The translations under genes were made by a program, and so were the position numbers. A stretch of DNA of 36,792 nucleotides, taken from Comamonadaceae bacterium CG_4_9_14_3_um_filter_60_33. Lineage in GTDB: Bacteria; Pseudomonadota; Gammaproteobacteria; Burkholderiales; Burkholderiaceae_C. Below are positions 29,873 to 33,892 of the stretch, piece by piece. Numbering within the stretch: position 1 is the first letter of the stretch; every line of letters starts with the position of its first letter. Under the pieces are notes generated by a model. The model searched no databases. It was not told the origin of the DNA and saw only the letters and a program-made list of their open reading frames with translations. The DNA lies in assembly GCA_002789915.1 (NCBI GenBank), contig PFUD01000111.1, forward strand, positions 1-36,792. Direction: 5' to 3'.

Positions 29873-31228
29873 CTAGGCAAGCGCTGGTGGGGCGTAAAAC
29901 TGCACCCGGTTGCGGCCCGCGTCCTTGGCCTGGTACATGGCGGAATCAACCGATTTGATGATGTCGTCAAGGCTGGCTTCTTGGCCGATGAAGATCGCCA
30001 CGCCGATACTGGCGGTGCAATGGTGTTCAATCACGGCATCGGCCTGAGACTGGTCGTTGGTGGTCAGCAAGTAAGGTTCCGCCAGGCTGCTGCGGATTTT
30101 TTCGGCGATACGGGCCGCCTGTGCCGTCGCTTCTGTTTTGTCGCCGTTCAGGTTGTCCAGCAGGACGACAAACTCGTCACCGCCGAAACGTGACACGGTG
30201 TCAACCTCACGCACGCAGCGTTTGAGCCGCTGGGCGACTTCAATCAGGAGCAAGTCGCCAGCGCTGTGGCCGTATGTGTCATTGAGTGGTTTGAAGTTGT
30301 CCAGATCGAGGAACATCAGTGCCTGGTAACAGCCACTGCGTTTGCTGGTTGCCATGCTCTGATGCAAGCGGTCGGACAGTACGATGCGATTCGGCAGTGC
30401 GGTAAGCGTGTCATAAAACGCCATATGGTGCACCTGGTCTTGCATCTGCTTGCGTTCGGTGATGTCGGTGATGAAACCGTGCCAAAGCGTCGAGCCGTCG
30501 GCTTCGCGCTCGGGCAGCGAATCACCAAACAGCCAGCGGACTGTGCCATTGGCAAATTTGACACGGTATTCCTGGCGCCATGCCGTCAGGTCGCGCGCTG
30601 AAGCCTGGATAGAGGCGACGACGCTGTTGACGTCGTCGGGGTGCAAAATGGCAAGCACCGGGCTGGCATCGTCACGCACTTGCTCCGGACTGACGCCGTA
30701 AATGGAGCGCATCGCGTCACTGGCATAAGGGAAAGACGAGCTGCCATCCGGGCGCAAGCGGTATTGGTAAACCACACCCGGCACCTGGCTGGCAAGCTTT
30801 TCCCATCGCGCCAACGTCTCGCGCAACGCCTCCTGCGCCGAGCGCAGGCGCAGCATGGCATCTACGCGCGCCAGCAACTCGGTCTTGCTGATGGGCCGCG
30901 CGATGTAGCCGTCGGCCAGACCGCTCGTCAGGCCCGCTGCCTGGTCTTCACCGGTGGTTTTGAGGCCTGACAACAAAATCACAAAAACCCCAACCAAGGT
31001 GGGTTCGCTCTTGATCTGGCGCGCCACGTCCACGCCATTGCCGTCGGGCAACATCACGTCAAGCAATAGCAGCGCGGGTTGGTGCTGCCGCGTAAGTGCC
31101 AGCGCTTCGGCTGCACTGGCGCCGGTAACGACTTGGTAGCCCGCCTGTGTCAGGATGCGCGCTGTGGCCCGCAAAATATCGGGATCGTCGTCAATCACCA
31201 CCAGGGTGGTGCTGGCTGGCTCAGCCAT
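29873..31228 (-). CDS. Response regulator with PAS and GGDEF domains (diguanylate cyclase)
   Basis: The protein has 451 residues in the order REC (about 7-127), PAS (about 145-258) and GGDEF (about 268-447), and should make c-di-GMP upon phosphorylation. In REC the phosphoacceptor is Asp57 (LLLLDVMLPDG) with the acidic pocket DDDPD; the usual KP is replaced by Arg111-Pro112 (YIARPISKTELL). The active-site motif RFGGDEF (347-353) is intact, and an inhibitory I-site RxxD (Arg340-Asp343) stands five residues before it, so product inhibition is expected. There is no EAL domain. The start ATG overlaps the histidine kinase stop by 8 bases, so kinase and regulator are translationally coupled. The longer open frame upstream lies inside the kinase gene and is rejected. 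Confidence 0.94.
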   Translation of the reverse strand: MAEPASTTLVVIDDDPDILRATARILTQAGYQVVTGASAAEALALTRQHQPALLLLDVMLPDGNGVDVARQIKSEPTLVGVFVILLSGLKTTGEDQAAGLTSGLADGYIARPISKTELLARVDAMLRLRSAQEALRETLARWEKLASQVPGVVYQYRLRPDGSSSFPYASDAMRSIYGVSPEQVRDDASPVLAILHPDDVNSVVASIQASARDLTAWRQEYRVKFANGTVRWLFGDSLPEREADGSTLWHGFITDITERKQMQDQVHHMAFYDTLTALPNRIVLSDRLHQSMATSKRSGCYQALMFLDLDNFKPLNDTYGHSAGDLLLIEVAQRLKRCVREVDTVSRFGGDEFVVLLDNLNGDKTEATAQAARIAEKIRSSLAEPYLLTTNDQSQADAVIEHHCTASIGVAIFIGQEASLDDIIKSVDSAMYQAKDAGRNRVQFYAPPALA

Positions 31229-32435
31229 GCTGATGCTCCTTAATTGGGTTGGTGCTGCTGGGGGTGTGAGTCGGCCGCAGCCGATCTGGCGGCAGTGTGA
31301 AGCCAAACACCGAGCCCTGGCCGAACGCGCTTTGCACAAACATGCGCCCGCCATGCGCTTCAATGATCTTACGCGCAATCGCCAGCCCCAGGCCAATGCT
31401 GCGCTCGCCGGTTGACTTGTAGTTGGCTTGTCCGCTGGCAAACGATTGGAATAGTTTTTCTTGCTGCGCTGGCGCAATGCCCGGGCCGCCATCAGCCACC
31501 TGCACGCGCAGCTCAGTCGGCAGCCGTTCACTGCTGAGCGTGACTTTGCCGCCAACGGGCGAGTGCTCAATCGCATTGCTCAGCAGGTTGGTCAGTACCT
31601 GCTCGATCTTGGCGCAGTCCACAAACACACGTTGGCTCGCTGCATCAATCTTGGTGCTGATGGTGACCCCGCGCTTGCTGGCCACCAGGTTGACCAACCG
31701 CAAAGCCGACTGTGCCATTTGCGCCAGATCGGCCGTTTCTTCCTCCAGGCTCAAGCGGCCCGCCTCGATGATGCTCACGTCCAGAAAATCATCCACCACG
31801 CGGTGCATGCGCTCAGCGGCGCTGTGGATGGTCTGCAAAAAATCGAGTTGCTCTGCCGTCAAGCTGCCTGAGGCTTCGTCCAGCAGAAATTCGGCGTAGC
31901 TCAGGATCAGGCCGGTGGGCTTGCGCAGATCATGTGCGGCCATGCCCAAGAACTGGTTCTTCAGTGCGTTGAGCTTGGCCAACTCGTCGTTTTTGAGCGC
32001 CAGTTCGCGGGTCATGTTGTTGAGCTCGTGGTTGAGCTCAAGCACCTCGCGGCCAAGAAGGGCCTGCTCGGCCGCGTTGACCTCGCCAAACAGCAAATAG
32101 TCGGTGCCCAAAGGCTCTACCGTGACCTCAAGCGTTTGTGGCAAGCCCGTTGTGGTGTGAACATTGAGCAGACGCGGCCGAGCGCTATCGGCGAGCCATT
32201 CGGCAAAGGGGATCACACCGGCAAAATTGAGCAGTATGCTGTGCCAGGGCTGGCCCAGCAGTGGCTCGCCGATCAGCGTGCGGGCATGCCGGTTGGCTGA
32301 AAGAATGAGGCCTGATGCGCTCAGGCGCAGCACCACCACGCTGCTGCTCGCGGCCAGGTATTGCCAAGCCGGGCCAACGCAAGCGCCCGGCCAGTTGCTG
32401 TCGCCGTTGTCGCCACTGTTGTTGTCACTGCGCAT
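31221..32435 (-). CDS. Soluble PAS-type sensor histidine kinase
   Basis: The 404-residue protein has no membrane helix, so it should be cytoplasmic. An N-terminal PAS-like domain (about 29-118, VVVLRLSASGLILSANRHAR) is followed by a coiled coil (about 120-165, LNHELNNMTRELALKNDELA), then the HisKA domain with phosphoacceptor His168 (GMAAHDLRKPTGLILSYAEF) and the ATP-binding domain: N box NLLSNAIEHS, G1 DGGPGIAP, G2 SIGLGLAIA. All needed residues are present. The start at 32435 overlaps the B12-binding gene stop by 11 bases; the longer open frame lies within that gene. Overlaps on both sides tie it to the cobalamin-sensor protein and the REC-PAS-GGDEF regulator as one signalling unit. Confidence 0.93.
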   Translation of the reverse strand: MRSDNNSGDNGDSNWPGACVGPAWQYLAASSSVVVLRLSASGLILSANRHARTLIGEPLLGQPWHSILLNFAGVIPFAEWLADSARPRLLNVHTTTGLPQTLEVTVEPLGTDYLLFGEVNAAEQALLGREVLELNHELNNMTRELALKNDELAKLNALKNQFLGMAAHDLRKPTGLILSYAEFLLDEASGSLTAEQLDFLQTIHSAAERMHRVVDDFLDVSIIEAGRLSLEEETADLAQMAQSALRLVNLVASKRGVTISTKIDAASQRVFVDCAKIEQVLTNLLSNAIEHSPVGGKVTLSSERLPTELRVQVADGGPGIAPAQQEKLFQSFASGQANYKSTGERSIGLGLAIARKIIEAHGGRMFVQSAFGQGSVFGFTLPPDRLRPTHTPSSTNPIKEHQHG

Positions 32436-33075
32436 ACGTTGCGAGCTGAAGCTCGAGTTCATCCAGCGAGCTGATGCAAGTGGCATTGGGGTAAGCCTGC
32501 ACCGCCTCCATGCCGCCCCAGCGCAGCGCCTGGCCACCTACCAGAATCGGTTGCGCGGGGAACTTGTCGGTGATGGCATCAAGCGCCTTGATCAATTGCG
32601 GGAGGTTGATCGACAAACTCAACGACAAACCCACCAGGGTCGGGCGGCGTTCTTCAATGGTGAGCAGCAGCTTGGGCAGCGGCGTGTCAACGCCCAGAAA
32701 GTACCCGCGCCATCCGTGCAATTCGCAAAAATCTGCAATCATGCGCCCGCCTAACTGGTGGTACTCGTCGGCGACGCACGCGACCACAATGCTGCGTTCC
32801 CGCTGCTGACCGGCAAAAGCATGTGGCTGTACCAGGCTCAGCATGCGTTCGGTGATTGCTGTGGCCAGATGTTCGGTTGCCACCGAAATGCGTTGGTTCT
32901 CCCACAGGTCACCGACTTGGTACATGGCGCGCTGAAAGAGCATGATGTACAGGGTTTTGAGGTCCGTGCCGGCGGCCACCAAGCTTTGCACGATGCTGGC
33001 GCATTGCGCGCGCTCACCTGCCAGGAGGGCGCTCAGATACTGCTGGTAAGTACTTTCGTTCAAAGTGCTACTCAT
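32425..33075 (-). CDS. Cobalamin-binding sensor domain protein, CarH-like without DNA-binding domain
   Basis: The 216-residue protein consists of a helical cap and a Rossmann-type B12-binding domain, with no MerR DNA-binding part. In the helical domain VGDLWENQRISVATEHLA gives the W-x9-EH motif (Trp58, Glu68, His69) that caps adenosylcobalamin in the CarH photoreceptors. The Rossmann part has DEYHQLGGRM (ExHxxG, Glu104, His106, Gly109; His106 the likely lower ligand), SLSLS (151-155) and VGGQAL (180-181 GG), the three standard B12 motifs. It resembles CarH-type and related stand-alone modules. Its stop overlaps the kinase start, implying that it feeds B12 or light state to the kinase. No Shine-Dalgarno is seen; a TATAAC hexamer at 33090-33085 lies only 9 bases before the ATG, so a leaderless transcript is possible. 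Confidence 0.9.
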   Translation of the reverse strand: MSSTLNESTYQQYLSALLAGERAQCASIVQSLVAAGTDLKTLYIMLFQRAMYQVGDLWENQRISVATEHLATAITERMLSLVQPHAFAGQQRERSIVVACVADEYHQLGGRMIADFCELHGWRGYFLGVDTPLPKLLLTIEERRPTLVGLSLSLSINLPQLIKALDAITDKFPAQPILVGGQALRWGGMEAVQAYPNATCISSLDELELQLATYAQ

Positions 33076-33121: not shown

Positions 33122-33247
33122 TTACTTGCGGCGCGCTTGGGTCAGGGTGGCTTCAAGCGTCTGCCATCGTTGATGGACTGCAAAGGTTTGTGCCTTGAGT
33201 TCCATCAAGCTGAGTTGTTGTCTGGATGGTCCTGTTTTTATGCCCAT
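33122..33247 (-). CDS. Possible 41-aa small protein upstream of the B12-sensor gene
   Basis: An ATG-to-TAA frame of 41 codons ends 46 bases before the B12-binding gene on the same strand. The product would be basic, and its second half helix-prone (SLMELKAQTFAVHQRWQTLE). There is no Shine-Dalgarno and I know no homologue. It may be a real small gene of the signalling operon or the decayed end of a longer gene, given the remnants just upstream. Weak call. Confidence 0.25.
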   Translation of the reverse strand: MGIKTGPSRQQLSLMELKAQTFAVHQRWQTLEATLTQARRK

Positions 33248-33412: not shown

Positions 33413-33723
33413 TCAAGCCACGGCAGGCCGGTACACCCGGATAAGGGGCGCGATTTTGGCCAGCGTTTGCTGCGTCACGGTGCGCATGTCGTATTCGGTT
33501 TGCAAATTCAGCCAGTAGCGCGGCGCCATACTGAAAAACAGACCCAGCCGCAAAGCCGTGTCCGTCGTGATCGGGAGCGTGCCGTTTACGATGTCGCTGA
33601 TGCGACTGGGCGGGGCACGTCCATGTCGGCGGAGAGTCGGCGCGCTGTGATGCCCATGGGCTTCATAAACTCTTCAAGCAATATTTCGCCGGGATGAATT
33701 TCGTCAAGCAACGTATTCGTCAT
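33413..33723 (-). pseudogene. higA: Frameshifted HigA-type antitoxin
   Basis: The frame from the ATG at 33723 reads like HigA (IHPGEILLEEFMKPMGIT, then ARRLSADMDVP) and then goes out of frame near 33610, in a C/G-rich run (GTGCCCCGCCCAGTCGC), reaching a stop soon after. Skipping two bases restores the rest of the helix-turn-helix and tail: PSRISDIVNGTLPITTDTAL, RLGLFFSMAPRYWLNLQTEY, ending in VYRPAVA and a TGA at 33413. The total length of 311 bases (3n+2) fits a net two-base insertion. A sequencing error in the C-run cannot be excluded, but the truncated toxin next to it argues for real decay. Confidence 0.8.
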
Positions 33724-33744
33724 GGTCACTCCAAATGGACTCAA

Positions 33745-33867
33745 TCAGTGGTAATCCACAATTTCCACACGGTACGCACCATCGTCATGCCAGGCAAAGC
33801 AGATGCGCCACTGGTCGTTGATGCGGATGCTGTGTTGGCCTTTTCGATCACCTTTTAACGCTTCCAG
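33745..33867 (-). pseudogene. higB: 5'-truncated HigB-type toxin
   Basis: The 40 codons before a TGA read LEALKGDRKGQHSIRINDQW and go on RICFAWHDDGAYRVEIVDYH, which is the C-terminal half of HigB/RelE-type mRNA interferases. The N-terminal half is missing: upstream of 33867 the frame runs into sequence leading to the OmpA-gene terminator. It precedes the antitoxin by about 20 bases, the normal higB-higA order. With half the fold gone the toxin should be inactive. Confidence 0.8.
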
Positions 33868-33892
33868 CAAAACTCAGATTGTCAGTCTAATG

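Follow-up and report, generated by a model that had tools for sequence, protein, structure and literature searches.

A stand-alone photocobilin-type B12 protein paired with a PAS-type histidine kinase in a putative signalling operon of a Comamonadaceae bacterium

The 36,792-nucleotide (nt) stretch at positions 1 to 36,792 of contig PFUD01000111.1 from Comamonadaceae bacterium CG_4_9_14_3_um_filter_60_33, hereafter the window, carries on its minus strand a run of three genes for a cobalamin (B12)-binding protein of 216 amino acids (aa), a histidine kinase and a REC-PAS-GGDEF diguanylate cyclase (Table 1). As an earlier note on this DNA had read them, the three open reading frames (ORFs) overlap: kinase and cyclase begin with ATG, and their starts overlap the preceding genes by 11 and 8 nt, respectively. 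The first protein is indeed stand-alone and consists of B12 domains only (PF02607, E 8e-15; PF02310, E 3e-13). The description of a soluble kinase followed by an intact cyclase also holds. The kinase has H-, N-, G1- and G2-box sequences and no membrane domain in the Pfam scan; the cyclase has the REC aspartates, including the phosphoacceptor, and an intact I-site and GGDEF motif, both within REVDTVSRFGGDEF. Lysine is the usual residue at the REC switch position; here it is arginine (IARPI, residues 109–113). The kinase boxes, the phosphoacceptor Asp and GGDEF fit a two-component system with a diguanylate cyclase output. Directly upstream lies a stub of a heme oxygenase-globin gene, which the earlier note overlooked.

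Table 1. Features of the three-gene run and the adjoining stub, in window coordinates.
Feature	Position	Strand	Evidence
Photocobilin-type cobalamin-binding protein, stand-alone, 216 aa (four-helix cap PF02607 + Rossmann PF02310)	32425..33075	-	Pfam, PDB profile, tree
Soluble histidine kinase, 404 aa	31221..32435	-	Pfam and box sequences
Kinase N-terminal PAS-type partner domain, followed by a helical linker	about 32061-32360 (borders approximate)	-	Custom domain model
Kinase HisKA	31758-31961	-	Pfam
Kinase HATPase_c	31284-31613	-	Pfam
REC-PAS-GGDEF diguanylate cyclase, 451 aa	29873..31228	-	Pfam and motifs
Cyclase REC	30863-31201	-	Pfam
Cyclase PAS	30488-30727	-	Pfam
Cyclase GGDEF	29906-30421	-	Pfam
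Stub of heme oxygenase-globin gene, 41-codon ORF	33122..33247	-	tblastn against relatives, heme oxygenase model

A profile of the B12 protein made from seven genus members (alignment A1) was compared with solved structures in the PDB. The best matches were photocobilins (8j2x, 1.4e-28; 8j2w, 1.4e-28; 8j2y, 4e-17), followed by 8jbs, a putative cobalamin-binding protein (1e-14), methionine synthases, CarH (7e-6) and AerR (0.009). The earlier label of CarH-type module was dropped: CarH ranks low in this search, the NCBIfam CarH equivalog reaches 55.6 bits, far below its cut-off of 400, and the N-terminal MerR-type DNA-binding domain of CarH/LitR is absent, although the Wx9EH adenosyl pocket, the lower-ligand histidine and the B12-binding fold are shared. 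Judged from its sequence, the protein corresponds to a photocobilin B12 module that lacks the globin portion.

Close relatives in the genus are confined to the window and six more of 89 genomes (47–82% identity), and nine further genus genomes carry only a more distant, fused protein. Matches among 150 evenly drawn family genomes were the window itself and two weak ones, and 369 class genomes gave 12 others, all at ≤38% identity. A scan of the GTDB contig set yielded 54 loci, labelled L below, six of which are the six genus loci. In a tree made by a quick method, the window and 50 of the 54 form one clade (SH-aLRT, the Shimodaira–Hasegawa-like approximate likelihood ratio test, 99) nested among fused photocobilin-like proteins; the other four loci are fused proteins. 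By record titles, this clade spans 15 phylum labels, two archaeal lineages included, but all 54 named loci are metagenome-assembled genome (MAG) records, some on contigs of 3–7 kb, and labels are possibly mis-binned. Two cultured organisms also carry B12 proteins: that of Ilyobacter polytropus (L140, 373 aa) overlaps a GGDEF gene, and that of Azospirillum thermophilum (L141, 353 aa) has a kinase gene two genes further on.

The motifs named in the earlier note are largely present (W58-x9-E68-H69, E104-x-H106-x-x-G109 and G180-G181); its SxL site is not literal and reads S151-L-S153. Across the 51 loci of the family, H69, E104, H106, G109 and S151 are kept in all, and W58 and E68 in 50 each (one gap and one Gln, respectively). 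According to the excerpts of the photocobilin paper (PMC10979010), Trp61 and Glu71-His72 of SasPcob are in contact with the adenosyl side, and His108 serves as the lower ligand of the cobalt; the equivalent residues W58, E68, H69 and H106 are thus kept in 50, 50, 51 and 51 loci.

The gene next to the B12 gene is also largely constant. Domain models were built from genus loci and run over all loci, 49 of which could be scored for the next gene (L055 and L064 end at the B12 gene). A PAS-type domain starts that gene in 45 of the 49, although the window, L046, L047 and L050 match by construction because their sequences built the model. The carriers comprise 39 histidine kinases, one GGDEF protein, two GGDEF-EAL proteins and three PAS-type domains alone. 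The four exceptions are a PAS-GGDEF protein without the partner domain (L056), a heme oxygenase-globin gene as the next gene (L070 and L090) and a broken B12 frame (L082). Gaps, which depend on mechanically assigned gene starts, are given for 42 of the 44 named loci that have the domain, and the two genes overlap or lie ≤9 nt apart in 40 of them. At E ≤ 1e-6, the 89 genus genomes contain seven matches to the domain (four of them in the query alignment), all adjoining B12-sensor genes: five in the family and two directly after a fused photocobilin-like gene. No match was found at the B12 loci of genus genomes G203 and G201. Since the matches in these genomes fall only beside B12-sensor genes, the PAS-type domain appears to be reserved for partnership with B12 sensors. 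This pairing lends strong circumstantial support to the earlier idea that the B12 protein acts on the kinase in trans.

Further downstream, the genes vary. The exact order of B12 protein, PAS-kinase and REC-PAS-GGDEF protein occurs, among the loci scanned, only in the window and in its sister species Rhodoferax sp. S03.Bin061 (L046). Other proteobacterial loci have a PAS-GGDEF fusion (L047), a kinase without a cyclase directly after it (L048, L049, L050), a PAS-GGDEF gene (L056) or a GGDEF-EAL protein (L081, L085). Many other loci continue after the kinase with a small globin-like gene and a gene for a REC protein. Pfam was run on four of these REC proteins: that of L053 has a sigma-54 activator, that of L078 is a hybrid kinase, that of L080 carries an HD domain, and that of L058 has REC and nothing else significant. 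With varied downstream genes against a constant PAS partner, the output appears exchangeable and the input pair fixed, and the conserved unit, as far as gene order tells, is the B12 protein with its PAS-kinase rather than the trio with a cyclase. Three Omnitrophota loci (L083, L086, L087) instead show, in this order, genes for the B12 protein, for a PAS-type protein that has no kinase part and for an ATP:corrinoid adenosyltransferase (PF02572, E 6e-61 to 8e-63). This enzyme makes adenosylcobalamin, and its place in these runs points to adenosylcobalamin as the ligand. The window's own genome contains a PduO-type adenosyltransferase (E 3e-54); a search of it for the BtuR/CobA type found none.

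The trio is read here as a B12-gated signalling operon, at a probability of about 0.55: an adenosylcobalamin sensor would gate a kinase in trans and, through it, cyclic di-GMP (c-di-GMP). The B12 protein would bind adenosylcobalamin, a likely ligand given the pocket residues and the adenosyltransferase neighbours. By analogy with photocobilins and CarH, its shape or dimerisation would change on exposure to light, green being the likeliest, or with the state of the corrinoid; light is moderately likely to be the physiological signal. The protein would then contact the N-terminal PAS-type domain of the adjoining kinase and shift its autophosphorylation, and gene pairing makes such contact probable, a step below the assignment of the ligand. 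Judging from domain order, the kinase would phosphorylate the cyclase at its REC domain and thereby set c-di-GMP synthesis.

A number of observations weigh against this reading. A published mining signature for light-responsive cobalamin domains comprises GxxW, EH, GxxH and GxxxP, according to the excerpts of PMC11796333. This SignatureFinder signature is present in the window in three of its four elements (GxxW, EH and GxxxP); GxxH reads DEYH, and the glycine, an Asp in the window, occurs in 19 of 23 fused proteins but in just 5 of the 51 loci of the family. This one-position departure in most of the family may explain why it was missed by mining. The upper histidine of CarH directly follows the Trp; here that residue is Glu59, and because of this replacement a bis-His light state of the CarH type would be unavailable to the B12 protein. 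SasPcob is likewise without a bis-His light state in the excerpts of PMC10979010. The PAS identity of the partner domain finds weak matches only (PAS_8, E 0.035; PDB, 0.083). The fused photocobilin-like loci, intended as a negative control, failed in that role, as a weak PAS-type match with a kinase or GGDEF protein follows in 14 of 22 of them: all ten in the genus (L121–L130; eight kinases, two GGDEF proteins), L096 and L131–L133. A further match lies upstream in the fused locus L134, and none was seen in the next gene of L097, L098, L099 and L135–L138. GGDEF output is confined to Pseudomonadota loci in the scan, and loss of the globin gene, described next, could have altered or ended the signal.

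Codons 3–29 of the stub (33161–33241) match the N-terminus of heme oxygenase-globin proteins, with tblastn E values, computed in a small search space, of 1.8e-6 to 5e-4 for seven of nine relatives; an eighth gave 0.037 and the ninth none. The stub is 73% identical to the L046 gene over 74 nt, and the heme oxygenase model also marks it. Its last 11 codons (33125–33157) give a weak match, in the same frame, to the C-terminus in five of nine relatives (E 0.23–6.2), a point that sits less easily with the account, and about 390 codons of the full gene are absent. Within the window's genome (92% complete), the family model found no heme oxygenase, and searches at E ≤ 1 found neither a heme oxygenase-globin nor a fused-type photoglobin. 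A second heme oxygenase-globin search, which returned full-length matches in five genus genomes, likewise found none there. The photoglobin profile matches 13 of 89 genus genomes at 1e-5; it misses the heme-oxygenase-fused globins of G171, G201, G203 and G224, which the heme oxygenase-globin searches cover. The window belongs to a clade of eight (SH-aLRT 98), and since the other seven all carry the heme oxygenase-globin gene, its absence indicates a loss in the window's line, which is real unless caused by an assembly error. With the gene reduced to a stub, the window species would sense via B12 alone. Another short N-terminal heme oxygenase stub was seen in G223 (L111:3749-4006); the sequence read around it showed no B12 gene.

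In betaproteobacterial relatives, the intact protein (429–462 aa) is encoded upstream of the B12 gene or forms one chain with the B12 domain. The N-terminal half of this protein is a heme oxygenase (PF01126, E 3e-19) with an invariant His24, which we take to be the heme ligand; the AlphaFold model of the protein (mean predicted local distance difference test, pLDDT, 84; predicted template modelling score, pTM, 0.54) matched heme oxygenase-1 in Foldseek with a template modelling (TM) score of 0.8 over the target. The second half is a homologue of the globin that fused photocobilin-like proteins carry (hhalign 96.1%, E 2.9e-9, controls <1%); a profile of that fused globin in turn matches, among PDB entries, allophycocyanin and the globin portions of 8j2y and 8j2w. 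Two Rhodoferax MAGs combine heme oxygenase, bilin-type globin and B12 domain in one chain (L055:4275-6530 in G201; L056:7663-9639 in G203). Elsewhere, a small globin-like protein of about 140–160 aa is encoded by a separate gene; it belongs to no family in Pfam (three members scanned) or NCBIfam (one member). It resembles the fused globins with an hhalign probability of 88.7% (E 2.6e-6, controls <1%; repeat, 87.9%), and its model (pLDDT 96) has phycobiliproteins and the biliverdin-binding smURFP as Foldseek leaders (E 0.014 and 0.027). Altogether, a globin or globin-like gene is present in 34 of 51 loci: ten heme oxygenase-globins, three globin matches alone and 21 small globin-like genes, with L095 and L068 (the latter among the 21) counted on partial matches. 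Two genus members (L112 and L115) have adjacent heme oxygenase and globin genes and no B12 gene within the stretch read.

These genes suggest a wider system, equivalent to a photocobilin split across separate chains and joined by a dedicated kinase. A bilin-type globin would complete it in the relatives, and in the window's lineage that globin would be fused to a heme oxygenase making its biliverdin. We hold only tentatively, at somewhat less than even odds, that the B12 protein, bilin-type globin and PAS-kinase form a widespread three-protein photosensory kinase reaching across the 15 phylum labels, methanogens included, with a betaproteobacterial heme oxygenase-globin fusion that has also taken in the B12 domain in the two Rhodoferax MAGs, and with the window as a natural B12-only derivative whose bilin arm is lost. 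Several points count against so broad a view, in addition to the limits of the tree and of the MAG labels. No globin gene is in view at 17 of 51 loci, the window included, although some are cut by contig ends. The 88.7% comparison was made with one fused protein taken out of the model, an earlier version that included it having been circular. The small globin-like protein has no direct relation to the heme-oxygenase-fused globin (1.6%), being linked only via the fused photocobilin globins, and has no Foldseek match at E ≤ 0.001. The 50 Foldseek matches listed for the heme oxygenase-globin model are all heme oxygenases or their fusions, which leaves its globin half without fold support there.

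By record title, the hosts of the family include methanogens, Desulfobulbaceae, Geobacter and Cloacimonadota, and several host groups among the 51 loci are known as anaerobes, in which light sensing is less obvious. For this reason, the main rival is a sensor of corrinoid supply or redox, in which apo, adenosyl- and hydroxo-cobalamin forms would act differently on the kinase and light would be irrelevant in the cell. The adenosyltransferase in three operons and the loci without an adjoining globin also favour it; it is nonetheless considered unlikely, given that the nearest solved relatives are light-activated photocobilins, that the adenosyl-pocket Trp and Glu-His are kept as in those proteins, and that most loci (34, ten of them with heme oxygenase) have a bilin-type globin or globin-like gene.

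The B12-gated reading must also be set against decay, in which the remainder of the operon would have drifted after the heme oxygenase-globin loss and no longer signal properly. Such a relic would agree with the shrunken upstream gene, the lack of a heme oxygenase or photoglobin elsewhere in the genome and the broken-looking ORF pieces upstream, yet all three ORFs are open with catalytic motifs kept, the window's end branch (0.11) is not longer than that of its sister (0.16), and 16 other family loci likewise show no adjoining globin gene. The ratio of nonsynonymous to synonymous substitution rates is 0.11–0.23 across the three genes (window versus sister species), values that also speak against decay but mostly reflect the time before the loss. 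Decay is consequently judged improbable. Mere co-transcription, in which the B12 protein would carry corrinoids or serve in methyl transfer and the PAS domain of the kinase would sense something else, is very improbable: the family search does pick up corrinoid carriers (pyl_corrinoid, E 6e-7), but the trio has no methyltransferase gene, and the PAS-type domain keeps to B12 genes in the family and in the genus genomes as described above.

Among known systems, the photocobilins SasPcob and AbDPcob (8J2W/8J2X/8J2Y; PMC10979010) are closest and share the same B12 module, differing in that their bilin-binding globin and B12 domain share one chain, whereas the window has a separate B12 protein, its own PAS-kinase and no globin found. 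The excerpts of that paper report in vitro activation of a diguanylate cyclase by a stand-alone photocobilin acting in trans, with signs that the two proteins touch; c-di-GMP output is found in AbDPcob. AerR/PpaA (PMC6199135, in excerpt; PDB 7TE2) is a stand-alone B12 photoreceptor with ExHxxG that works through protein contact, as proposed here; its partner is the transcription factor CrtJ, unlike the kinase here, and its similarity is weak. These two precedents make the statement in the earlier note that no characterised system has this form too strong in principle. The BBAG-2 clusters contain the same three ingredients, and the excerpts of PMC10151467 report that BBAG-2 globins bind biliverdin and that, in Myxococcales, globin goes together with a B12 protein and a heme oxygenase; those excerpts describe no kinase partner and no heme oxygenase-globin fusion. 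In the three-component HbpS-SenS-SenR system (PMC4991794, in excerpt), the sensor kinase is controlled by an accessory aquo-cobalamin-binding protein; unlike the window's B12 protein, HbpS is secreted, redox-driven and GAF-like in structure.

The principle of photocobilins and of B12 plus bilin sensors is already known, and the stand-alone B12 protein with a dedicated PAS-kinase would be a variation on it. The term "histidine kinase" is absent from the main text of PMC10979010 and PMC11796333. No description of the pairing was found in the literature searched, by titles and the beginnings of abstracts. Schneider et al. 2022, on photoglobin, reportedly ties photoglobin and B12 domains to signalling genes, and priority for the kinase link is uncertain because that work may discuss such neighbourhoods. 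Most known B12 photoreceptors are repressors or share a chain with their output; the conserved partner domain indicates the point at which a stand-alone B12 sensor would engage ordinary kinases and cyclases, and control of two-component signalling by light or corrinoids becomes testable with two or three soluble proteins. If the wider system is real, the single-chain Rhodoferax photoreceptor would make its own second chromophore, and a species without the bilin arm beside sisters that keep it would be a natural experiment on the role of each chromophore.

No cobalamin riboswitch or other Rfam RNA was found in the window at gathering scores. A split-antitoxin reading of the pieces at 33413–33723 is unproven, as Pfam returned nothing for one piece and one weak, unrelated match for the other. 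They belong to a group of broken ORF pieces on the minus strand (33413–33880), between an OmpA-like gene and the trio, which by eye resemble toxin-antitoxin remnants.

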